A DNA stretch of 64,000 nucleotides. Source: Chthoniobacteraceae bacterium (GTDB lineage: Bacteria > Verrucomicrobiota > Verrucomicrobiia > Chthoniobacterales > Chthoniobacteraceae). This document shows positions 4,701 to 16,185 of this stretch, piece by piece. Below the pieces are notes generated by a model. It saw only the letters and a program-made list of their open reading frames with translations, was not told where the DNA came from and made no database searches. Position numbers and translations under genes: made by a program. Where the stretch lies: the NCBI GenBank assembly GCA_028293625.1, contig JAQGOL010000042.1, positions 62,001 through 126,000 of the forward strand. The letters run 5' to 3'. Every line of letters starts with the position of its first letter. Positions within the stretch are counted from its first letter, which is position 1.

Positions 4701-4835
4701 TTAGTCCACCACCAGATTGACGGCAGCGTCACCGCGCAACGCTTTGAAATAGGCGCACGTCTGGTGCGCGGCTTCCATCACGCGTTTTGCCTGCTCGCGC
4801 TCCACTCCGGGAAGCTGCGCATGCAATTCGCCTGT
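4701..4835 (-). pseudogene. C-terminal remnant of an Ohr/OsmC-family peroxidase gene
   Basis: Reading the minus strand from 4835 to the stop at 4701 gives about 44 codons that match the end of organic hydroperoxide resistance proteins. The pattern is GELHAQLPGV, then EAAHQTCAYF, then ALRGDAAVNLVV. In intact Ohr the Cys of the H-x-x-C-P-Y-S segment is the resolving cysteine; here it reads HQTCAYF. There is no room for the first ~95 residues, including the other catalytic Cys and Arg, because the SGNH hydrolase gene ends exactly where the match begins. I read this as a fragment left by a deletion or insertion. Confidence 0.6.
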
Positions 4836-6124
4836 TATTTTACCAGCTCGCCTACCAGCAGCAGCGCACCGGGATAGATCGCCGTGCCATTGAAGCGCTC
4901 GGGCTTGTCGATCTTCTCTTTGCGCCGGGCAAGGATCGTCTCCTTGTCGGGTTGATCGGGGTGGATTTCGATCTTCACGCTATGCACAACATCGGGCAAT
5001 TCGGAGCCGATGAGCAACGTGGCGAGACGGTAATAGGTGGAGTAGGCGTCAAAGCGCGGCACTATCCGGGCGGGCTGATCATCAAGAGTCACGAGCACCT
5101 GGCCGCAATCCGGTCCAAGCAGATCATAAAGCGCCGCATGGGTGCCGCGAAACCTGAACGTGATGGTTTCGCCGGGCCTGCTGCCCCGGTACATCGCCTT
5201 GATATTGCCTGAAAAGCGTTTGGCTAACTCCTCCTTTTGAAGATCGAGCGCTACTATTCCTTCAGACAAACTGAGCTCGCTAATGGGCAGCAATTTAGCG
5301 AGCTCATAGTTGGTGGCGCTCAGAGGCGCCTGAAGGAGATGAGGCTCCGCGTTTTTCGACTCTGCTTCAATCGGTCCAAGCGACCGCACAATCGCCTGAA
5401 GATAAAGTTCGTGTCCGGTCTCCGGATACGGATGAACGCCATCGGACGCAAAGACAACCTTGTCGCCAATCGACTTTTTTTCCTCCTCGCTTTTGGGCAG
5501 GGGCGCGCTCCAAATCAGGCGCCCCTCCTTTGCAAGCTCTGCAGCGTGCGCGGCCATGTGAATGGACGGAATGCCATAATACTCAGCCACCTGTTCCATC
5601 GTCGACGCGGCCCGCGGATATTTACCTTCCATCATCGGACCGGCGATCGCTTCACTTAAAGTGTAGACAAAGCAGATGTCGCACTGGGGCAAAGCGCGCC
5701 AGGTCTGCCGCACGATCCCTTCCATGCAACGGACGATCTGCTCAGGCTCGGCCCCGGCGTCATTGACGGCAAACTCAACAAACAGGAGATCGGGGTTTAG
5801 ATCGAGCAGATCCTGTTTAAGCCGGAAGACGCCAAGGTCGGAGCCGGTTCCGCCGATGGCCGCGTTGATCTCAGAGAATTTCACCGCCGGATAGGTGGCT
5901 TGAAAATGGGCCAGGCTTTTGGGACGCCATCCGGCCTGAGCTGTAATGGAGCCTCCCAGATAGCCGACTTTCATCTCCGCATTGGGCACTTTGAGTTTGG
6001 CGAAAAAGTTAGGCAGTCCGGCACGGCTGTGGAATTCCTGCGCTGCAACCAGCGAAGAATTGGCTGCGCGAACGACGCAAATCAGCACGTAGCCGGCAAT
6101 GAGAAGAAGCAATCGAAGTTTCAC
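4835..6124 (-). CDS. Secreted SGNH/GDSL-type hydrolase
   Basis: The 429-residue protein starts with a signal peptide (MKLRLLLLIAGYVL, cleavage near VRAAN). Block I is VGYLGGSITAQAG with nucleophile S59. A Gly block (IGGTGSDLG), an Asn block (VEFAVND) and a terminal DGVHPYPETGH with the catalytic Asp and His follow, so the SGNH tetrad is complete. After the esterase domain comes a ~150-residue all-beta region (ITFRFRGTHAALYD) resembling accessory domains that bind carbohydrate. A role in de-esterifying extracellular polysaccharide is likely. Its stop codon abuts the Ohr remnant. Confidence 0.85.
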   Translation of the reverse strand: MKLRLLLLIAGYVLICVVRAANSSLVAAQEFHSRAGLPNFFAKLKVPNAEMKVGYLGGSITAQAGWRPKSLAHFQATYPAVKFSEINAAIGGTGSDLGVFRLKQDLLDLNPDLLFVEFAVNDAGAEPEQIVRCMEGIVRQTWRALPQCDICFVYTLSEAIAGPMMEGKYPRAASTMEQVAEYYGIPSIHMAAHAAELAKEGRLIWSAPLPKSEEEKKSIGDKVVFASDGVHPYPETGHELYLQAIVRSLGPIEAESKNAEPHLLQAPLSATNYELAKLLPISELSLSEGIVALDLQKEELAKRFSGNIKAMYRGSRPGETITFRFRGTHAALYDLLGPDCGQVLVTLDDQPARIVPRFDAYSTYYRLATLLIGSELPDVVHSVKIEIHPDQPDKETILARRKEKIDKPERFNGTAIYPGALLLVGELVK

Positions 6125-6419
6125 AATTTGAACAAAATCAAAATCTGTTGTTGCGAGCGATGGGGTTTTGGAAAAAAACCACGCTTAGCTGGAGACGCGC
6201 GGTGGGCGCCATCTGGATGAAAGATTGCGTATTGAGGGAATGGGGCCACGCTGAGAACGTGATAAAAAACGTCCAGCAACCATGCCCGTCTCCCGCCCCC
6301 CCGGGAAAGGGGTTGGGTCGGGGCGATGGCAGTTGGAAATTTTCATTTGGCCTTGCGACGACTGGAGCCAAGCCGTGCGCGAGTTCGACGGCAAGTGCAC
6401 GTGCGTCGCGTATTTTTCC
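6125..6419. other. Intergenic region upstream of the KaiC module
   Basis: About 295 bases lie between the divergent SGNH gene and the first gene of the KaiC module. The segment near 6285-6330 is G/C-skewed (runs of C then runs of G) and can fold on itself. I see no convincing gene, RNA or promoter, although the start of the 6420 operon must be driven from here. Confidence 0.4.
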
Positions 6420-6866
6420 ATGAGCCGTGCCACTCCACAGACACGAAATCTCGCCGTGCATTTAATTGCTTATGAGACAGAGGAGAACAAATTGTCAGAA
6501 GATGGGCTCCCCGCGGTTTTCCACGTCTGCGAGACGCTGCGACCCCATTTGGCGACCCTGATGGGAAAAGCTGGCTTCCGGGCAATCCTTTCACGGGCTA
6601 TTGCGGTGGCGGGCGCGGAAATCCCTTGGCTGGCTGCGATGCAGGTCACGCCAGAAGGGTCTTTGGGAGGTTGGGATAAGCCGGAAACGCAAGTGCATTC
6701 CGAGGAATTCACCGAAGGCTGTGTGCTTTTTGTCGCCCAACTGCTTGGGCTTTTGATCGCTTTTATCGGGGACAGTTTAACGCTCCGCCTTGTGCGCGAT
6801 GTATGGCCGCAGCTATCCCTCGAAAACTTGAACTTTATTACAGGAACCAGCCATGAAGAAGTCTAG
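6420..6866 (+). CDS. Unrecognised 148-aa protein, first gene of the KaiC module
   Basis: I do not recognise a named family. The product is small, mostly helical and has no signal peptide. Visible blocks are VFHVCETLRPHLATLMGKAG, an AGAEIPWLAAMQV segment with a Trp, and a C-terminal hydrophobic stretch (VAQLLGLLIAFIGDSLTLRL) followed by VWPQLSL. The ATG at 6420 is preferred over 6282 because the upstream part is low-complexity GC-rich shadow. Its end overlaps the kaiC start by 14 bases, which implies translational coupling and a shared job with the ATPase and two kinases downstream. It is not KaiB: there is no thioredoxin-like pattern and the length is wrong. A partner or adaptor of the KaiC-like protein is inferred. 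Confidence 0.7.
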   Translation: MSRATPQTRNLAVHLIAYETEENKLSEDGLPAVFHVCETLRPHLATLMGKAGFRAILSRAIAVAGAEIPWLAAMQVTPEGSLGGWDKPETQVHSEEFTEGCVLFVAQLLGLLIAFIGDSLTLRLVRDVWPQLSLENLNFITGTSHEEV

Positions 6867-8409
6867 CGATGCGGCCAAACGCAAACTGCCAAAAAAAGAC
6901 GAGGCGAAGGCAGGGAAAGTGATTATCCGTAAGATACCGACAGGCGTGCGAGGCCTGGATGACATCCTGGGCGGAGGCATCCCGGAGTTTTCCTTTAACA
7001 TCATCGCGGGAAGTCCTGGCTGCGGTAAAACCACGCTTGCGCATCAGATTCTTTTCGCCAACGCGTCCACCGCCAATCCCGCACTTTATTTCACCGTCCT
7101 CGGCGAGCCTGCGATGAAGATGCTGCGCTATCAGCAACAGTATTCGTTCTTCGACGAATCTAAGCTGGGCACAGCGATTCGTTTCATCAATCTCGCCGAC
7201 ATCGTGATGGAAAAGAACCTGGATGCGGTTTTCGACGAGATCGCCAGGCAAGTGACGGAAGTGGGCCCAAGTCTTGTGGTGGTCGATTCTTTCCGCACCG
7301 TGGTTCGCAAAGCGCTGCTCAGCACGAGCGAGCTCGAGATGCAGATTTTCATCCAGCGCCTCGCCCAGTTCCTGACCAGTTGGGAAGCCACCACGTTTCT
7401 CGTCGGGGAATACGTTCTTGAAGAGGTGCGAGACAATCCGGTTTTTACGATCGCCGACGGTCTCATCTGGCTCTCCCAGGTGGCGGAGCGAAATTCCGTG
7501 GTGCGCAAACTTCAGATCATGAAATTGCGCGGGCAGGAGTCGGTGCCGGGCCTGCACACCGTTCGCATCAGCACGAGCGGGCTGCAGGCGTTCTCCCGGA
7601 CACTTGGTTTGGTTGGAAAAAAACAGCCTCCCGCGCAGCGGCGGCGCTTATCAATGGGTATTGATGAATTGGATAAAATGCTCGGCGGCGGCATTCTTGA
7701 AGGCGATAGCCTCCTTATCGCGGGCCCCTCAGGTACTGGCAAATCGGCGCTGGCAACACAATTTATCGCTGAAGGAATCCGCAACGGTGAGCCGGGCATC
7801 ATCGCCGTTTTTGAAGAGCGCCCAAACGGCTACGCGGAGCGAGCCGCCGGCTTTGGACTCGATTTAAAAAAACCGCAGGAGAACGGAATGCTTGAGATTC
7901 TTTATCTGCGTCCACTTGACTTATCGGTCGATGAAACCATGCAGGAACTCCTTGAGGCGATTGAGCGGGTCGGAGCGAAGCGACTGGCAATCGATTCGCT
8001 GGTTGGTTTTGAAATGGCGCTTGCACCGGGATTTCGAGCCGACTTTCGTGAGTCGCTCTACCGCATGATTGGCGCACTGACCGGAGCCGGCATCACGATT
8101 CTCAGCACTGTGGAAGTGGAGGATACCTTCACCGCCATGCCCTTCAGCCATTATGCGATTTCTTTTCTTACCGACGACATTATCCGGCTGCGTTTTGTGG
8201 AAATCACCGGCCAGCTCCGCAAGGTGCTCGTCATCATCAAAATGCGCGGCGGCAATCACAGCAAAGATATTCGCGAGTATGTCATCACCGACAAGGGAGT
8301 GGTGGTGATCGGTCCGCGCCAGACCGATTATGCGAGGCTGACCAGCGGCCTCCCGGAACGCATAGGCCAGGAGATGGAAAAGGCGCCGGAACCGAAGGCC
8401 ACGCAATAG
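6853..8409 (+). CDS. KaiC-like double-domain RecA-family ATPase
   Basis: The 518 residues form two tandem KaiC domains, as in cyanobacterial KaiC. Domain one has Walker A GSPGCGKT at 53-60 and Walker B LVVVDSF. Domain two has Walker A GPSGTGKS near 290-298 and Walker B LAIDSL. The catalytic Glu pair is intact in domain two (FEERP, 321-322) but reduced to G84-E85 in domain one. The C-terminal region aligns with the KaiC phosphosite loop: the S431 equivalent is kept (S437), the T432 equivalent is Phe (F438) and the T426 equivalent is Ser. Neighbours are histidine kinases, not kaiA or kaiB. AGGA lies shortly before the ATG. The role is probably an ATP-dependent switch feeding the kinases; clock function is not supported. 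Confidence 0.9.
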   Translation: MKKSSDAAKRKLPKKDEAKAGKVIIRKIPTGVRGLDDILGGGIPEFSFNIIAGSPGCGKTTLAHQILFANASTANPALYFTVLGEPAMKMLRYQQQYSFFDESKLGTAIRFINLADIVMEKNLDAVFDEIARQVTEVGPSLVVVDSFRTVVRKALLSTSELEMQIFIQRLAQFLTSWEATTFLVGEYVLEEVRDNPVFTIADGLIWLSQVAERNSVVRKLQIMKLRGQESVPGLHTVRISTSGLQAFSRTLGLVGKKQPPAQRRRLSMGIDELDKMLGGGILEGDSLLIAGPSGTGKSALATQFIAEGIRNGEPGIIAVFEERPNGYAERAAGFGLDLKKPQENGMLEILYLRPLDLSVDETMQELLEAIERVGAKRLAIDSLVGFEMALAPGFRADFRESLYRMIGALTGAGITILSTVEVEDTFTAMPFSHYAISFLTDDIIRLRFVEITGQLRKVLVIIKMRGGNHSKDIREYVITDKGVVVIGPRQTDYARLTSGLPERIGQEMEKAPEPKATQ

Positions 8410-8418
8410 GAGAAAGTC

Positions 8419-10467
8419 ATGGGCACTGAACTATTATCGGTAGAAGTGCCAGTCGATCTTGCCGGTCTCAGTCTTGAGATTGCCGAATACTCTCCTTTGC
8501 CGATGGCCACGGTGGAGGGATCAACGCGCATTGTGCGGTACGTCAACCGCGCTTTCTGCCAGTTGCTGAACCAATCGGTTGAGCAACTTGTCGGAAAACC
8601 GCTTAATGTATTGCTGCCCGAGAAAGACGACTGCGTCACATTGCTGGACCACGTTTTTCGCTCCGCGCGGCCGGAATGCCACACTCAGCAGGAACATTCC
8701 AAACCGCATCCGATTTTTTGGTCATACACGATGTGGCCAATCATTTCCAAAAAGCGCGTGGTGGGAGTTATGATTCAGGTCACGGAAACCGCGCAAACCC
8801 ACGCGACGGCGCTTGCTTTCAATGAAGCATTGGTCATTGGGTCTGTGCGCCAGCATGAACTCACCGAAGCGGCCGAGAGTTTAAATGCACAGCTTCGGGT
8901 GCAGATCAGCCAACGCCAGCAGGCGGAGGAAGCGCTCCGTGAAAGCGAGGAACGGTTTCGCAGTTTGTTTGTCTCCGCGCCGATGGCCATCTTCGCCTGC
9001 GATCGGGAGATGCTCATTCAGCAATACAATGCTCTTACGTCCGAACTTTGGGGCCGGGAGCCCGTGGCTGGTGTGGAGCGCTTTTGCGGCTCCAGCCGGT
9101 TTTGGATGTGCAAGGAGACGTCAGAAAGCCTGATGCTGGAAGTGCTGCGGACCGGCCTTTCCAAGCTTAATGTAGAGCTTTCCATCGAGCGGCCCGATGG
9201 CTCTCGTGTGCCCGTGCTGGTCAACTTCGCGGCACTCAAAAATGGAGAAGGTAAAATCACCGGGACGATCGTTTCATTTGTTGATCTGACTGAACGCAAG
9301 AAACTCGAGCAGCGCCTGCTCCACTCGCAACGCATGGCGAGCATCGGCACGCTGGCGGGCGGCATTGCGCACGATATGAACAACTCGCTGGCGCCGATCA
9401 TGATGTCGATCGAACTGCTAAAGAGAAAGTTTACCGACCCGACCAGCGAAGGTCTTTTAAAGCTGATCCACTCCAGTGCCCAGCGGGGTGCGGAAATCGT
9501 CCGCCAAGTGCTTTCTTTTGCACAAGGCGTTGACGTTTTAAGCACAGAAGTTCACGTGCCGCAGCTGATTGGCCAACTCGAGAAAATCGTCGCTCGAATT
9601 TTTACTGGCAACATCCGGCTCCATAGCGATCTTCCGCCAAAACTGTGGCCACTGATGGGTGACCCGGCACAGCTTCACGAAGTTTTGCTGAACCTCTGCC
9701 TGAATGCGCGCGACGCAATGCCGAATGGCGGGCTCGTGCTGATTTCGGCTGCAAATCGCTTGGTCGACGCCACGGAAGAGGGGCTTAGCCAGAACCCGAA
9801 ATCCGCGCCGGGCCGGTACGTTTTGTTGGAAGTCAAAGACCACGGCACCGGGATCGCGCCCGGGATCATGGAACACATTTTCGAGCCGTTTTTCACGACC
9901 AAAGAATTTGGCAAAGGCTCGGGTCTGGGGTTGTCGACCTCGCTGGCGATTATTAAAAGCCATGGCGGCTTCCTGCATGTCGTGAGCGAGATGGGGAACG
10001 GGACGGCCTTCCAGGTTTTTATACCGGCGCAACCGCAAGGTTCCTTGCTTGTATCGGATCCGATGCCGGCTCCCGATCTGCTGCGCGGAAACGGGGAGCT
10101 TATCCTTGTGGTCGATGATGAGGATCCCCTGCGCCGGATGACTCAGAGGATTCTCGAAACGTTCGGATACCGCGTTGCTCTGGCTTGCGATGGAGTGGAG
10201 GCGGTCGCGGTTTATGCGAGGCAAAGAGAAGAAATCGCAGTTGTCCTCACCGATATGGCGATGCCACTCATGGACGGTGCCGAAGCCATCCGCGTCTTGC
10301 GGGGCATGAACCCGGCGCTGCCGATCATCGCAGCCAGCGGCCTCATATCCAATATTGACGAGGCTGCCCTTGCAGCCCTCGGTATAAACCACATCTTATC
10401 CAAGCCGTATACGACCGCAATGCTGCTCACGATGGTGCGGCAGCTCTTGAAAGGGGAGTCGAAATGA
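8419..10467 (+). CDS. PAS-containing hybrid histidine kinase with C-terminal receiver
   Basis: A good ribosome site (AGGAGA) precedes the start. Domains in order: PAS (~20-110), a linker helix with the motif NEALVIGSVRQHELTEAAE, a second PAS (~175-290), a HisKA dimer domain with phospho-His H318 (AGGIAHDMNNS), an HATPase with N box and G box (GKGSGLGLS), and a receiver whose phosphoacceptor is D612 (VVLTDMAMP). No membrane segments are seen, so it is a cytoplasmic sensor. The linker motif recurs almost unchanged in the next kinase. It follows kaiC by 9 bases and overlaps the next gene by 4 (ATGA), so the three are translated together. Confidence 0.93.
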   Translation: MGTELLSVEVPVDLAGLSLEIAEYSPLPMATVEGSTRIVRYVNRAFCQLLNQSVEQLVGKPLNVLLPEKDDCVTLLDHVFRSARPECHTQQEHSKPHPIFWSYTMWPIISKKRVVGVMIQVTETAQTHATALAFNEALVIGSVRQHELTEAAESLNAQLRVQISQRQQAEEALRESEERFRSLFVSAPMAIFACDREMLIQQYNALTSELWGREPVAGVERFCGSSRFWMCKETSESLMLEVLRTGLSKLNVELSIERPDGSRVPVLVNFAALKNGEGKITGTIVSFVDLTERKKLEQRLLHSQRMASIGTLAGGIAHDMNNSLAPIMMSIELLKRKFTDPTSEGLLKLIHSSAQRGAEIVRQVLSFAQGVDVLSTEVHVPQLIGQLEKIVARIFTGNIRLHSDLPPKLWPLMGDPAQLHEVLLNLCLNARDAMPNGGLVLISAANRLVDATEEGLSQNPKSAPGRYVLLEVKDHGTGIAPGIMEHIFEPFFTTKEFGKGSGLGLSTSLAIIKSHGGFLHVVSEMGNGTAFQVFIPAQPQGSLLVSDPMPAPDLLRGNGELILVVDDEDPLRRMTQRILETFGYRVALACDGVEAVAVYARQREEIAVVLTDMAMPLMDGAEAIRVLRGMNPALPIIAASGLISNIDEAALAALGINHILSKPYTTAMLLTMVRQLLKGESK

Positions 10468-12164
10468 GCCATGACGAAATTGCTTCGGCAAAAATTTCCG
10501 GAGAGCTCATTCATGAGAACTGCGACAACTGCGCGCGAATGCTCGAGCGGATGGTTGAGGTAAATGAAGCGCTGATTATCGGAGCCGTGCGGCAGCACGA
10601 GTTTACAGAAGTGGCGGAACGCCTGAACGCGCATCTTCAGATCGAGATCGTTGCACACAAAAAAACGTCCCGCGAGCTGGCGGAAAAAGCCAATCTCCTT
10701 GATCTGAGCAATGACGCCATCATCGTAAGCGATTTTGACGATCAGATCACGTTGTGGAACCAGGGCGCTGAAAAGCTTTACGGCTGGTTTTCCGAAGAGG
10801 TGCTCGGCAAAGACCTCAACTCGCTTTTGCGGACAGAGTTTCCGACGCCGCGGGAGAAAATCGCGCTGCAACTCGAACATGAAGGTCTCTTTATCGGCGA
10901 GGTGGTGCAGACCACCCGTGGCGGACGCCGGATCCCGTTGATCTGCCGCTGGGTAATGGACAGGAAAACCAGATCTATTCTGACCAGCTTCACGGACATC
11001 ACCGAACGACATGCGGTTGAATCAGCACTGGCCAACCGCGCGGTAAAATTAGCGAGTGCCAATCGGAGCAAAGACGAGTTTTTAGCAATGCTCGCCCACG
11101 AGTTGCGCAATCCGCTTGCCTCGCTGAGCAACGCCGCCGCGATTTTGCAAATAACAGATGTCAGCGTCGACGACCGCGGGCACGCCCAGTATATTATCAA
11201 TCGGCAGATCGAAAATATGAGCCGCATGATCGACGACCTGCTCGATGTCTCGCGTATCACTGAGGGGAAAATCGAACTCCGCAAGCAGCCTGTGGCCCTG
11301 GAAGCGATCCTCACTGCCGCTACGAGTCTCGTGCGCGCAAACTGTATTTTTCGGCATCAGGATCTGACGGTTTCGCTCCCCGTCGAGCCGATCTTTTTAA
11401 ATGCCGATACTACCCGGCTTGAACAGGTCTTTATCAATCTTCTTGGCAATGCCTGCAAATATAGTGGCGACGGCTGCAGCATTGCTCTCAGCGCGGAGCG
11501 CGCTGTCGGCGTTGAGCCGCCCGAGGTCGTCATCTGCGTGCGCGACAATGGCGCAGGCATCGACGCTGAACTGTTGCCCCGCGTCTTTGATCTCTTTGTT
11601 CAAGCCACGCGTGCGCTGGACCGCTCGCATGGCGGCCTCGGCATCGGCCTCACCCTCGTAAACCGGCTCGTGACCCTGCACGGCGGCAGCGTCGAAGCGC
11701 ACAGCGCGGGCCTCGGCCATGGAAGCGAATTCACCGTCCGGCTGCCGATCCTTCATCAGACGCCGTCGGCGCCGTTGCCGCTGCCGGCCCCCATTCAGGA
11801 AACTTCCCGCCGCATCCTCATCGTCGATGACAACACCGATTCCGCGCGCAGCATGGCCATTCTTCAGTCGCGCCGGGGCCACGTGACGCGCACCGCTTTC
11901 ACCGGGCCCGATGCGCTTACCGCGGCCGCTGAATTCCTGCCCGAAGTTGTGCTTCTCGACATTGGGCTGCCGGGCATGGACGGTTTTGAAGTGGCGCGCC
12001 TCCTTCGCAGGATGCCCGTCATGGCAGGCGCGTTGCTGATCGCCATGACCGGCTATGCGAGCGCCGAAGATCGGCATTTGGCGGCTCAGGCCGGCTTTGA
12101 TGAACATCTCATCAAACCCGTCGATCTTGAGACGCTGCGCGACTGGCTGCGGACGCGGCCTTGA
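10464..12164 (+). CDS. Hybrid histidine kinase with PAS and receiver, fourth gene of KaiC module
   Basis: Translation begins at an ATGA overlap with the previous kinase, helped by GGGGAG. The N-terminus carries the same linker motif as its neighbour (NEALIIGAVRQHEFTEVAE). One PAS domain (~70-180), HisKA with H212 (LAHELRNPLAS), HATPase (DNGAGIDAELLP, GLGIGLTLV) and a receiver with D499 (LLDIGLPGMDG) follow. The protein is soluble. The E-L-R-N-P H-box type differs from the D-M-N-N type of the preceding kinase, so they are not recent duplicates; the shared linker is therefore notable. No separate output regulator is encoded nearby, so the phosphoryl target is unknown. Confidence 0.93.
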   Translation: MSHDEIASAKISGELIHENCDNCARMLERMVEVNEALIIGAVRQHEFTEVAERLNAHLQIEIVAHKKTSRELAEKANLLDLSNDAIIVSDFDDQITLWNQGAEKLYGWFSEEVLGKDLNSLLRTEFPTPREKIALQLEHEGLFIGEVVQTTRGGRRIPLICRWVMDRKTRSILTSFTDITERHAVESALANRAVKLASANRSKDEFLAMLAHELRNPLASLSNAAAILQITDVSVDDRGHAQYIINRQIENMSRMIDDLLDVSRITEGKIELRKQPVALEAILTAATSLVRANCIFRHQDLTVSLPVEPIFLNADTTRLEQVFINLLGNACKYSGDGCSIALSAERAVGVEPPEVVICVRDNGAGIDAELLPRVFDLFVQATRALDRSHGGLGIGLTLVNRLVTLHGGSVEAHSAGLGHGSEFTVRLPILHQTPSAPLPLPAPIQETSRRILIVDDNTDSARSMAILQSRRGHVTRTAFTGPDALTAAAEFLPEVVLLDIGLPGMDGFEVARLLRRMPVMAGALLIAMTGYASAEDRHLAAQAGFDEHLIKPVDLETLRDWLRTRP

Positions 12165-12350
12165 TGGCAGGCGCAAGCCTTTAGTTGAAAAGGGAAAGAT
12201 CGCAGCCGCCCGTTTTTCGTCGGCTGGGAAGCCACTGATATACAACCAGCGGGAAAACATGGTGCGAACTTCGGCCGGTTGCCTCACGCATCCCCTCCCC
12301 TCGGCAAATCCCGAAGTCGCCCCGGAAGAGTTTTCCCATCCACCTTTACC

Positions 12351-13868
12351 ATGACCGCCATCCTAGCGCTCGACCAAGGAACCACGAGTTCCCGCGCCAT
12401 TTTATTCAATCACGACGGCACCATTCATGCCGTGGCCCAGCGGGAGTTTAAGCAAATATTCCCGCAATCGGGCTGGGTGGAACATGACGCCATTGAGATC
12501 TGGAACACGCAGATCGAGACCGCGCGTGAAGTGCTTAAAAATGCCGGACTCACGGCTGCGGACATCGAGGCCATTGGAATCACCAACCAGCGTGAAACCA
12601 CGCTTTTATGGGATCGAAAAACGGGTCGGCCCGTGGCCAACGCGATTGTCTGGCAGGACCGGCGGACCGCCGCATTTTGCGATGAGCTCAAAGCGGCCGG
12701 CCACGCGGATTTAATCCAAAACCGCACGGGCCTTGTCATTGACGCCTATTTTTCGGGCAGCAAAGTGCGCTGGCTTCTTGACCATGTACCCGGCGCACGG
12801 GAGAAAGCCGAGCGAGGCGAACTGGCATTCGGCACAATCGATTCCTGGCTGGTTTGGAATCTCACCGGCGGCGCGCTCCATCTAACCGATGCCAGCAACG
12901 CCTCGCGCACGATGCTCTTTAATTTGCAAACCGGCGATTGGGACGACGAACTGCTCAGGATCCTCGAAGTGCCGCGCTCGCTCTTGCCCGAAGTACGCTC
13001 TTCCAGCGAGGTTTACGGAGAGACGGCACCCGGTATTTTTGATTCGCCGATCCGAATTGCAGGTATTGCGGGTGATCAGCAGGCAGCGCTTTTTGGACAG
13101 AACTGTTTTGCGCGCGGCTCCGCCAAGAATACCTATGGCACGGGCTGCTTTATGCTGATGAACATTGGCGACCAACCGAGAATTTCCCGCCATCAATTGG
13201 TGACCACGGTAGCCTGGAAGGCAAATGGGCAAACCGAGTTCGCCCTTGAAGGGAGTGTGTTTATCGGGGGCGCGGTCGTGCAATGGCTGCGGGACGGTTT
13301 GGGGCTGGTGAAATCGGCGGAGGAAATTGAGCGTTTGGCGGTTTCCGTGCCTGATTGCGGAGGCGTCTACATGGTGCCGGCATTCGCGGGGCTGGGCGCC
13401 CCGCACTGGGACCAATATGCGCGCGGCACTATCATGGGAATCACACGGGGCACTACGGCGGGCCATTTCGCAAGAGCCGCCCTGGAAGGCATCGCTTTTC
13501 AGGTGGCCGACATCCTTGAAATCATGAATCAGGACTCCGGCATTCCCATCACTGAACTGCGGGTGGACGGCGGCGCCTGCTCCAACAATTTGCTCATGCA
13601 ATTTCAGGCCGACCTGCTTCAGGTTCCCGTGGTGCGGCCCAAAGTCATTGAAACCACTGCCCTTGGCGCCGCCTATCTGGCCGGACTGGCCACCGGTTTC
13701 TGGAAAGATCGCGGGGAAGTGCAACAGGCCTGGCAGATCGATCGCATTTTTACTCCTCAAATGTCCGCTGCCGATGCTGCCCATCGCCGGGCCCGATGGA
13801 AGCAGGCCCTGAATCGGGCGCGGGATTGGGAGGAACACACCACCGTCAACGTTGAACGGGCTCTCTAA
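12351..13868 (+). CDS. glpK: Glycerol kinase
   Basis: This enzyme phosphorylates glycerol to sn-glycerol 3-phosphate using ATP. It is a FGGY-family kinase of 505 residues. The N-terminal phosphate loop is [15 protein letters not shown]. The substrate region has TNQRETT and VWQDRRT, and the C-terminal FGGY signature is the region [19 protein letters not shown]. The ATG at 12351 sits just before the conserved first strand; the upstream 24 codons in frame look non-coding. The glpD gene follows after 3 bases and glpF next, forming a full glycerol uptake and oxidation operon. Confidence 0.96.
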
Positions 13869-13871
13869 ACG

Positions 13872-15434
13872 ATGAACCGCCACTCTTTTCTTCAGCGCCT
13901 CCACGAACGGACCGACCCGTGGGACATTGCCATTGTCGGAGGAGGCGCCACGGGAGTAGGCATTGCGGTTGATGCCGCCGCGCGCGGTTACAGCACGGTG
14001 TTGTTGGAACAATGCGACTTTGGAAAAGGCACTTCCAGCCGTTCAACCAAGCTTGTCCATGGCGGCGTGCGCTATTTGCAGCAGGGCAATATCCCGTTGG
14101 TGATGGAAGCACTTAAGGAACGCGGGCTGCTTCTGGCCAATGCGCCGCATCTTGTGCATGACCTGGAGTTCGTTGTGCCGAATTACCAATGGTGGGAGGC
14201 TCCATTCTACGGGATCGGCATGAAAGTCTACGATCTGTTGGCGGGCAAATATGGGTTTGGCTCGTCGCAACTGCTTTCGCGCGAGGAGGTGCTCCAGCGG
14301 ATTCCCACGCTTGAACAGGAAGGACTGCGTGGCGGTGTCAAATATCACGACGGCCAGTTTGATGACACCCGGCTTCTGATTAATCTGGCGCAAACCGCCG
14401 CCGAACAAGGTGCGTGCCTCCTCAATTACGCACGTGTCGATGGCATCTCCAAGGACGCCGAGCGGTTCGTCACAGGCGTGCGCTTTTACGATGAGGAAAA
14501 CGGCCGGGCTCACACCGTTGCGGCACGCTGTGTCATCAATGCGACCGGGCCGTTTTGCGACGCGTTGCGCCAGGTCGATGAACCCGACGCCCCGGCAATG
14601 ATCGCCCCCAGCCAGGGCGTGCATATTGTGCTGAGCCGGGAATTTCTGCCGGGCAACACCGCCATCATGGTGCCGCACACGCGCGATGGCCGGGTCATGT
14701 TCGCCATCCCATGGCATGGCCATGCCCTCGTCGGCACTACCGACACGCCCATCGCCAAAGCGACGCTTGAACCAAAGGCGCTCTCCCAGGAACTCGATTT
14801 CATCCTCGAAACGGCCGGTGATTACCTCGCCAAACATCCCACCCGCGCCGATATCCTCAGCGTTTTCACCGGCATCCGTCCCCTGGTGAAAGCCGGCGAA
14901 TCGAGTTCCGGCACGGCCGCCCTTTCCCGCGACCATACTATCCACATCTCGGGCTCGGGCCTGCTGACCATCGCGGGTGGCAAATGGACCACCTACCGCA
15001 GGATGGCCGAGGATGCCGTCGATCACGCCATCGTCCTTGGGGGAATGGCTGAGCGGCCATGCGTCACGAAGGATTTGCGTGTCCATGGCGCTCACCGGCA
15101 TTCCGAACAGTTTGGCAATCTTGCCATCTACGGCTCCGATGCAATTGCGATCGGGCAACTGATCCGCGAGGACGCACAACTTGGTGTGATGCTCAGCCCT
15201 GCCCTGCCAATCAACGGTGCCCAGGTCATCTGGGCGGCCCGGCAGGAAATGGCACGCACCGTCGAAGATGTCCTGGCTCGTCGAACCCGGGCGCTCTTTC
15301 TCAACACCAAAGCCGCGCTGGCGATGGCGCCCTTGGTGGCGCGATTGCTAGCCAAAGAAATCGGTCGTGATGAAGCGTGGGAGCAGGCACAGGTCGCCGA
15401 CTTTGGCACACTCACTCTCAATTACATGATTTAA
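13872..15434 (+). CDS. glpD: Glycerol-3-phosphate dehydrogenase (FAD, aerobic)
   Basis: This enzyme oxidises glycerol 3-phosphate to dihydroxyacetone phosphate and passes electrons to membrane quinones. The dinucleotide fold is AIVGGGATGVGIAVDAA, followed by the GlpD-type segment SRSTKLVHGGVRYL. Later motifs are PWHGHALVGTTDT and the second FAD contact AGGKWTTYRRMAEDA, with a helical C-terminal domain. At 520 residues it is the usual GlpD size. It lies 3 bases after glpK and 4 before glpF. The product feeds triose-phosphate isomerase, encoded at 29126-29896 on the other strand. Confidence 0.95.
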   Translation: MNRHSFLQRLHERTDPWDIAIVGGGATGVGIAVDAAARGYSTVLLEQCDFGKGTSSRSTKLVHGGVRYLQQGNIPLVMEALKERGLLLANAPHLVHDLEFVVPNYQWWEAPFYGIGMKVYDLLAGKYGFGSSQLLSREEVLQRIPTLEQEGLRGGVKYHDGQFDDTRLLINLAQTAAEQGACLLNYARVDGISKDAERFVTGVRFYDEENGRAHTVAARCVINATGPFCDALRQVDEPDAPAMIAPSQGVHIVLSREFLPGNTAIMVPHTRDGRVMFAIPWHGHALVGTTDTPIAKATLEPKALSQELDFILETAGDYLAKHPTRADILSVFTGIRPLVKAGESSSGTAALSRDHTIHISGSGLLTIAGGKWTTYRRMAEDAVDHAIVLGGMAERPCVTKDLRVHGAHRHSEQFGNLAIYGSDAIAIGQLIREDAQLGVMLSPALPINGAQVIWAARQEMARTVEDVLARRTRALFLNTKAALAMAPLVARLLAKEIGRDEAWEQAQVADFGTLTLNYMI

Positions 15435-15438
15435 CATT

Positions 15439-16185
15439 ATGAGCCCGTATCTCGCGGAATTCATCGGCACCGCACTGCTTGTTATTTTGGGTAATGGCGT
15501 GGTGGCAAATGTCGTGCTTGAACGCACCAAAGGCCAGGGTGGCGGCTGGATTGTCATCACCGCCGGCTGGGGATTTGCCGTATTTGTAGGAGCCTTTTGC
15601 GCCGCCCCCATCAGCGGCGCACACATCAACCCGGCGGTGACGCTGGCGATGGCCTGCACCGGGCAGCTCCCGTGGGCCCAGGCTCCGGGCTACATCGGAG
15701 CACAATTGGCGGGCGGGATCGTCGGCGGGTCGCTGGTTTATTTTTTTTATCGCGAACATTTTAAATTGTCCGCCGACGCGGATGCCAAGCTCGCCTGCTT
15801 CGCAACCGCTCCCAATATCCGCCACCTGCCACAAGCGTTTTTCTGTGAGGTGCTCGGAACATTTGTCCTCATCCTGCCAATTTTCCTCATGACCCAGCCA
15901 AGCATGAAGTTTCCCGTTGGCGCGGTCACTTCGGATGTCGGCGTCGGTTTAGGAACTATCGGCCTGATTCCTGTGGCGCTTCTTGTTTTCGCCATCGGCC
16001 TTTCGCTCGGCGGCACCACCGGTTATGCCATCAACCCGGCACGCGACCTCGGGCCACGGCTCGCCCACGCCTTTTTACCCATCCCTGGCAAACGCAACAG
16101 CGGCTGGGGATATGCATGGGTGCCCGTCGCAGGCCCGCTGGTTGGGGCGCTCCTTGCCGTTGCTGCGCGGAAAGTGCTCATCTGA
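15439..16185 (+). CDS. glpF: Glycerol uptake facilitator (aquaglyceroporin)
   Basis: This MIP-family channel admits glycerol across the inner membrane. Both half-helix signatures are present: GAHINPAVTLA with NPA at 64-66 and GYAINPARDLGPR near 195-205. The Asp after the second NPAR is typical of glycerol-conducting rather than water-only channels. Six hydrophobic spans are visible in 248 residues. It is the last gene of the glpKDF operon. Confidence 0.93.
   Translation: MSPYLAEFIGTALLVILGNGVVANVVLERTKGQGGGWIVITAGWGFAVFVGAFCAAPISGAHINPAVTLAMACTGQLPWAQAPGYIGAQLAGGIVGGSLVYFFYREHFKLSADADAKLACFATAPNIRHLPQAFFCEVLGTFVLILPIFLMTQPSMKFPVGAVTSDVGVGLGTIGLIPVALLVFAIGLSLGGTTGYAINPARDLGPRLAHAFLPIPGKRNSGWGYAWVPVAGPLVGALLAVAARKVLI

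Follow-up and report, generated by a model that had tools for sequence, protein, structure and literature searches.

A KaiC subtype paired with a small protein of an unnamed family and followed by helix-bearing histidine kinases in a Chthoniobacteraceae genome

In the cyanobacterial KaiABC system with its SasA/RpaA output, a two-domain KaiC is combined with an output histidine kinase that is thought to read KaiC, and the roles of the KaiC catalytic and phosphosite residues have been established in Synechococcus KaiC (PMC5520375). What KaiC does outside the cyanobacteria is a long-standing question. Operons of kaiC and a histidine kinase that lack kaiB have been known since 2011 from Ramlibacter and others, in genomes from which kaiB is absent, and a KaiC-docking N-terminus, called receiver- and KaiB-like, was proposed for the kinase (PMC3164672). 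KaiC-like ATPases have been presented as signal transduction hubs in archaea (Makarova, Galperin, and Koonin 2017, cited in PMC5847659), and myxobacteria have multiple KaiCs, few of them with KaiB (PMC11832031). Here we analyze a four-gene unit at positions 6420 to 12164 of a 64,000-nucleotide stretch of DNA from a Chthoniobacteraceae bacterium (the window), which encodes a 148-amino-acid (aa) protein that we call X, a KaiC of a distinct subtype, and two hybrid histidine kinases that share a conserved helix. Based on gene order and residue patterns, we somewhat favor reading this unit as a KaiC-based signaling module in which X and a KaiC ring jointly govern interchangeable outputs, probably contacting them through the helix.

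Although the unit shares its general components with KaiABC-SasA, it has no KaiB in the locus, a phenylalanine at the position of the phosphosite residue T432, a broken catalytic pair in the first KaiC domain (CI), and the additional protein X. Its kinases also differ from SasA in that their N-termini consist of PAS and helix; they have no KaiB-type Pfam match at E ≤ 1 and match PAS domains instead. The Ramlibacter-type operons (PMC3164672) resemble the window unit in that KaiC is directly followed by a dedicated kinase. In contrast to those operons, the window unit has X ahead of KaiC and a different helix common to its kinases, and its genome encodes six KaiBs at other sites. A figure legend in the same paper refers to SF-type sites and hypothetical proteins among kaiC neighbors, and some X-type KaiCs may be drawn in its figures. 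As in the archaeal hubs (PMC5847659), KaiC may serve several outputs here, but the archaeal proteins are described there with domain fusions, whereas the window unit is bacterial and combines gene neighbors, a shared helix, and X. Searches of open-licence full text, by letters or by context, found no description of X or of the helix. The suggestion of the first-pass annotation that the combination might be undescribed thus holds for X and the shared helix in the databases and papers searched, but not for KaiC-kinase operons without KaiB, which have been in the literature since 2011. What appears to be new is the X family, together with the KaiC signature and the helix common to the kinases.

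The four open reading frames were confirmed on the forward strand and overlap or touch one another: X and KaiC overlap by 14 bases, kinase 1 starts 9 bases after KaiC, and the two kinase genes meet in an ATGA overlap. These junctions had been read from the outset as those of a single unit, and the unit is indeed real. Its features are as follows.

6420..6866, + strand: X, a 148-aa protein of an unnamed family, with no family match and with KaiC as the next gene in 51 of 51 testable loci
6853..8409, + strand: X-type KaiC, 518 aa, two RecA-like domains (PF06745, 238.7 bits; clade support 100/100)
7093..7110, + strand: KaiC CI catalytic position, TVLGEP replacing the FEE-type pair, first glutamate lost
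7723..7749, + strand: Walker A of the second KaiC domain (CII), GPSGTGKSA, intact in 31 of 31 X-type rows
8155..8178, + strand: KaiC CII phosphosite region, AISFLTDD, with Ser at the S431 position and Phe at the T432 position
8419..10467, + strand: hybrid histidine kinase 1, with PAS, conserved helix, PAS, HisKA, HATPase_c, and REC (domains by Pfam; H-box His318, REC Asp612)
8803..8937, + strand: conserved helix, kinase 1 residues 129-173 (profile A3, E 1.3e-20 genome-wide, this row being itself in the profile)
10464..12164, + strand: hybrid histidine kinase 2, with conserved helix, PAS, HisKA, HATPase_c, and REC (domains by Pfam; H-box His212, REC Asp499)
10545..10679, + strand: conserved helix, kinase 2 residues 28-72 (profile A3, E 3.4e-19 genome-wide, this row being itself in the profile)

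The pairing of X with KaiC was examined in 54 loci (3 + 37 + 10 + 4). KaiC followed X in all 51 testable loci, i.e., those with an intact X and enough contig behind it, which comprise the window, 47 loci found via X or its profile, and 3 found via KaiC. Loci L050 and L140, whose contigs end right after X, and L143, which holds an X remnant and no KaiC, were left out of this count; L034 was included as a pair even though its KaiC frame, 157 bases after X, lacks the first part. As controls, the six other KaiCs of the same genome have no X, nor does the Ensifer plasmid KaiC (L092), the sole other plasmid KaiC inspected. Judged by this gene order, X forms a fixed pair with this KaiC subtype.

An alignment of four X homologs recovered 37 loci in a genome-contig scan, and a single-sequence X query gave no match in the same collection. 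These loci are labeled Verrucomicrobia, Acidobacteria, Planctomycetes, Beta-, Alpha-, and Deltaproteobacteria, Nitrospirae, and Flavobacteriales; L055 comes from the strain Zavarzinella formosa DSM 19928. The genome searches scored the best 5 candidates per genome (KaiC search of the phylum) or the best 14 to 20 (X searches), and the absences reported here apply at that sensitivity. Within the phylum, X was found in 3 of 288 genomes, the window's own included, and the family profile returned the same three; X, the X-type KaiC, and convincing helix matches all fall in these genomes. Among 200 genomes from the class to which G298 (Acidobacteriota) belongs, 12 carried X, two of which were already in the set of loci. 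When X was searched by tblastn against 72,556 plasmid records, only a Paracoccus record was matched, while KaiC matches were present in 284 plasmid records. Three Caballeronia plasmid loci (L089-L091) were found by KaiC and carry a divergent X (profile E 2e-9 to 5e-8). In G482 (L143, 6674-9199), an X fragment with a stop adjoins a helix kinase and no KaiC is present, which looks like decay of the module.

The pair also persists where no kinase was detected. In an acidobacterial lineage of 14 loci in 13 genomes, KaiC is preceded by two X copies, X1 and X2 (in L056, a locus left out of alignment A2, X1 is beyond the contig end), no kinase core was found in the available stretches, and the profile search revealed no helix kinase in the 13 genomes. 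For 11 of the 14 loci (L028, L029, L030, L031, L033, L034, L037, L038, L047, L050, and L059), the gene immediately preceding X1 is CRP/FNR-like, with broken frames in L031 and L047; the three remaining loci have <600 bases before X. By Pfam, this gene has cNMP_binding and HTH_Crp_2 in L037 and cNMP_binding alone in L028. X1 is a longer X paralog of ~200 to 250 aa with a C-terminal extension, seen in Acidobacteriota at L033:9327-9953, L134:3875-4555, L139:7521-8201, and L142:6523-7233. Its copies either precede X-KaiC, diverge from it, or stand separately close to a CRP-like gene, and are not always beside KaiC; those in L134, L139, and L142 are not followed by KaiC and were left out of the pair count.

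X itself matches no Pfam or NCBIfam family at E ≤ 1 and no PDB sequence at E ≤ 5, in keeping with its first description as an unknown protein. The 37 aligned X rows likewise gave only stray Pfam matches (best E 0.021), and X is a protein family without an entry in the Pfam and NCBIfam copies searched. It is single-copy in its genome, with one further chance match at E 1.1, and its start at 6420 is consistent with its homologs. Residues G49, G52, R59, and W129-P130 of X are invariant or nearly so. Against the closest homolog in the set (L023), X shows 36, 21, and 81 differences at codon positions 1, 2, and 3, respectively (138 of each), i.e., mostly at third positions. The AlphaFold2 model is mainly helical (mean pLDDT 77.5, pTM 0.74), with predicted helices at residues 6-24, 32-67, 69-73, 94-116, and 118-128 and two short strands between them. 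Fold searches found no convincing relative (Foldseek best E 1.2, VIA-align best Z 4.1); the rows returned were mostly one viral capsid protein, which we read as common helix packing. KaiA and KaiB folds are not among the fold matches listed for X, a circumstance to which we attach no evidential weight.

As a small helical protein inside a phosphorelay operon, X might be a partner of the kinases, for instance a histidine phosphotransfer (HPt) or anti-kinase protein, rather than a partner of KaiC. Two observations make this highly unlikely: none of the His positions of X is invariant or close to it in the 37 aligned rows, on which ground the HPt candidate was rejected, and X stays with KaiC in the 13 genomes without a helix kinase found and the 14 loci without a kinase core found. 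X instead probably serves KaiC as a cofactor: it is retained next to KaiC when no helix kinase accompanies the pair, and in the one case of a missing KaiC (G482) it has itself degenerated. The initial idea that the 148-aa protein is an adaptor between KaiC and the kinases is less likely than this cofactor role, since the acidobacterial lineage has X and KaiC with no helix kinase in the 13 genomes searched.

The window KaiC belongs to the KaiC ATPase superfamily, scoring 238.7 bits against PF06745 (cut-off 26.6) with two domains and a Walker A motif in both. X-adjacent KaiCs are 57 to 95% identical among themselves (28 rows, 378 pairs), 48 to 54% identical to two Caballeronia KaiCs, and 20 to 32% identical to eight other KaiCs (six from the same genome, one from Ensifer, and one PDB chain). 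In the tree, the X-type KaiCs form one side of a branch with 100/100 support, for which the tree tool warns of long branches meeting. L032, which is frame-broken in CII, was left out of the identities and the tree, and the alignment does not contain four further KaiCs of the phylum (L084-L087). Within the phylum, the X-type KaiCs of the two other genomes are 71 to 74% identical to the window KaiC, and the other matches listed are ≤31% identical, bar one partial match at 36%. The subtype has a clear residue signature: all 31 X-type rows have Gly-Glu as the CI catalytic pair and none of the eight other KaiCs does, while CII retains Walker A and Phe-Glu-Glu (Phe-Glu-Gln in Caballeronia).

These residues bear on whether the unit could be a timer, i.e., an hourglass or clock in which X replaces KaiA/KaiB and the kinases form a KaiC-SasA-like output. 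The general layout of KaiC plus output kinase is the same, 28 of 30 X-type rows retain Ser at the S431 position (Ala in both Caballeronia rows), and an SGxPxR-like remnant of the A-loop is kept at the C-terminus in several rows. However, the T432 position is Phe in all 30 X-type rows that reach the site, such that the adjacent S431/T432 phosphosite is not present, and the CI pair is broken in all 31. The window KaiC is also far below the cut-off of the circadian equivalog TIGR02655 (174.8 versus 546.25 bits), and the X loci searched for KaiB contained none. We therefore consider a timer improbable. More specifically, a KaiA/KaiB-type two-site phosphorylation clock is unlikely, because the T432 position is Phe throughout and the loci tested yielded no KaiB.

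The KaiB search covered the first 20 kb of the window, L013-L015, and L023-L059 and found no KaiB open reading frame (one KaiB query from the same genome was used, and the same script found the genome's other KaiBs). The description of the unit as being without KaiB is thus correct for the locus but not for the organism: among the seven two-domain KaiCs of this genome, four of the others (on contigs C13, C31, C26, and C11) lie beside six KaiBs that score above the Pfam cut-off. The KaiCs on C8 and C21 and in the window have no adjacent KaiB, the contig ending 1.6 kb after KaiC in C21. The six contigs with other KaiCs (C13, C31, C26, C11, C8, and C21) correspond to L016-L021, and four of them have one or two KaiBs each. 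On C8, KaiC is directly followed by a hybrid kinase, much like the published kaiC-HK operons.

Both window kinases are hybrid histidine kinases, each having HisKA, HATPase_c, and REC domains with the phospho-accepting His and Asp, and kinase 2 lacks the PAS domain that precedes the helix in kinase 1. The helix, with the motif AMNEALLxxSVRQHELTEAAE, is a stretch of ~45 residues common to both (alignment A3, with 16 further kinases). Across the 18 aligned rows, which were picked for having the motif, its Asn, Leu, and Gln are invariant and its Arg is nearly so. In the window's own genome, the helix profile matched only the two kinases of the unit, against 78 HisKA matches; the next four matches had E values of 0.03 to 0.95 and partial coverage only. 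The model of the kinase 1 N-terminus places a PAS-like alpha-beta part before a single helix at residues 128-184 that holds the motif (mean pLDDT 81.5, pTM 0.57).

A helix kinase was the next gene after KaiC in 28 of 43 testable loci, or in 28 of 33 outside the CRP-X1-X2-KaiC acidobacterial lineage (L050, L140, L143, L024, L028, L029, L035, L040, L054, L058, and L059 were left out of this count). The gap between KaiC and the kinase was 3 to 14 bases in 18 of the 28, based on first possible starts. The co-occurrence check proposed for the four genes was thus withstood by X, KaiC, and one kinase, which recur together in several phyla; the second kinase is optional. Helix and X also co-occur at the level of genomes. 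In the phylum, the helix was present in the same 3 of 288 genomes as X, plus one match judged spurious (Fisher P = 1e-6, uncorrected for kinship). In the 200 genomes of the class of G298, 8 had X and helix (one an X remnant), 4 had X only, 1 had the helix only (weak), and 187 had neither (Fisher P = 8e-11, likewise uncorrected). The helix was found in 19 of 35 searched genomes of the 37 contig loci, the genome of L045 being outside the 35; the 16 without it are 13 of the CRP-X1-X2-KaiC lineage plus G289, G299, and G321. Most of the 24 helix matches in these genomes fell in known loci. Seven lay elsewhere: three extend past contig ends, two (L118 and L122) follow KaiC, and L117 and L119 have no KaiC seen. 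L122 holds a second KaiC of G320; its N-terminal end is broken, tblastn found no X there, and it was not counted as a pair. A helix match in G253 was judged spurious, since its frame, which is not that of a kinase, runs opposite to another open frame, and the match in G494 was weak (E 7.8e-5, profile positions 11-39).

The class of kinase behind the helix varies and includes HisKA hybrids, HisKA_3 in L042 and L045, and HWE with a separate REC-like protein in Paracoccus. Since the helix occurs on HisKA, HisKA_3, and HWE kinases, it does not simply track one catalytic family. In the Caballeronia loci L089 and L090, a single protein with GGDEF, HisKA, and HATPase_c follows KaiC (by Pfam in L090, by likeness in L089), and all three Caballeronia loci have a convergent, opposite-strand kinase with a receiver part. 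A similar helix can be seen by eye in the Caballeronia kinases; the profile missed it (best E 1.6 in a search of these loci alone with filters off), and they were counted as lacking it. Two strains account for the three plasmid-borne Caballeronia copies, and in L091 KaiC is broken into two frames. An apparent KaiC-EAL fusion in L035:6416-8377 (Nitrospirae) was set aside as a probable chimera, with a coverage of 1.77 in the contig name and a join inside CII.

Several observations weigh against a module in which KaiC and X act through this helix. The profile detected no helix kinase in 15 of the 43 loci, namely, 10 of the CRP-X1-X2-KaiC acidobacterial lineage, L057, L142, and the three Caballeronia loci. 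Helix kinases also lie without a nearby KaiC in L117 (12 kb visible), L119 (720 bases visible before), and L143. Nearly all of the 37 contig loci are metagenome bins, whose individual taxon labels may be wrong. No structure clearly resembles the mostly helical model of X, so the role suggested for X derives from gene order. Finally, given that it is predicted as one continuous helix, the shared segment may be just an ordinary PAS-kinase signaling helix.

If so, the helix would be a general PAS-to-kinase element inherited with the operon, KaiC-X would act elsewhere, and the kinases would be mere neighbors. Such an explanation would fit the continuous helix after a PAS-like fold, the resemblance of parts of it to coiled coils of other kinases (E 0.03 and above), and the absence of the helix from those 15 loci. 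It does not readily account for Asn, Leu, and Gln being invariant, and Arg nearly so, even in kinases without the first PAS and in the HWE kinase, nor for the finding that no other kinase of the genome matches the whole profile. On balance, we regard it as unlikely.

We therefore return to the signaling module, whose function we infer as follows. The KaiC ring would act as a switch driven by nucleotides, turning over ATP chiefly in CII, given that one of the catalytic glutamates of CI is missing. X would bind KaiC as a dedicated cofactor, setting or reading its state. The ring would dock on the helix between the sensor and catalytic parts of the kinase, where PAS signals normally pass to the catalytic core, and the KaiC-X state would gate kinase autophosphorylation and relay to the REC domain. 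Outputs would be swappable among HisKA, HisKA_3, and HWE kinases, probably the GGDEF-kinase fusion of Caballeronia, and perhaps the CRP/FNR regulator of the acidobacterial lineage. The earlier thought that a metabolic or redox state is transmitted met with nothing for or against it. More tentatively, and with somewhat less confidence than we place in the module itself, the unit could represent a widespread, undescribed, non-clock system in which a KaiC ring and an obligate new cofactor form a hub that plugs into different outputs via one helix, with its own docking code.

Such a module would bring to the question of KaiC outside cyanobacteria a defined subtype with a fixed partner, an unvarying gene order, clear residue signatures, and a candidate contact site. 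How a KaiC without a two-site phosphorylation clock talks to kinases would thereby become testable on three purified proteins, and the natural swaps of output enzyme would be ready-made controls.

An anti-phage defense system was also considered, given that KaiC matches PADLOC mad8 (E 1.5e-11). This match falls in the nucleotide-binding domain and probably reflects the general P-loop, X and kinase 1 have no PADLOC match, and the three matches of kinase 2, in its REC and ATPase parts, are weak; judged by these matches of the unit's own proteins, a defense role is scarcely credible. Promoter-like and terminator-like sites at 6000-12500 showed no excess over shuffled sequence. Upstream, the neighbor of the unit is an opposite-strand gene at 4835-6124. 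Downstream, 12279-16185 holds ordinary-looking glycerol genes, read by eye as glpK, glpD, and glpF.

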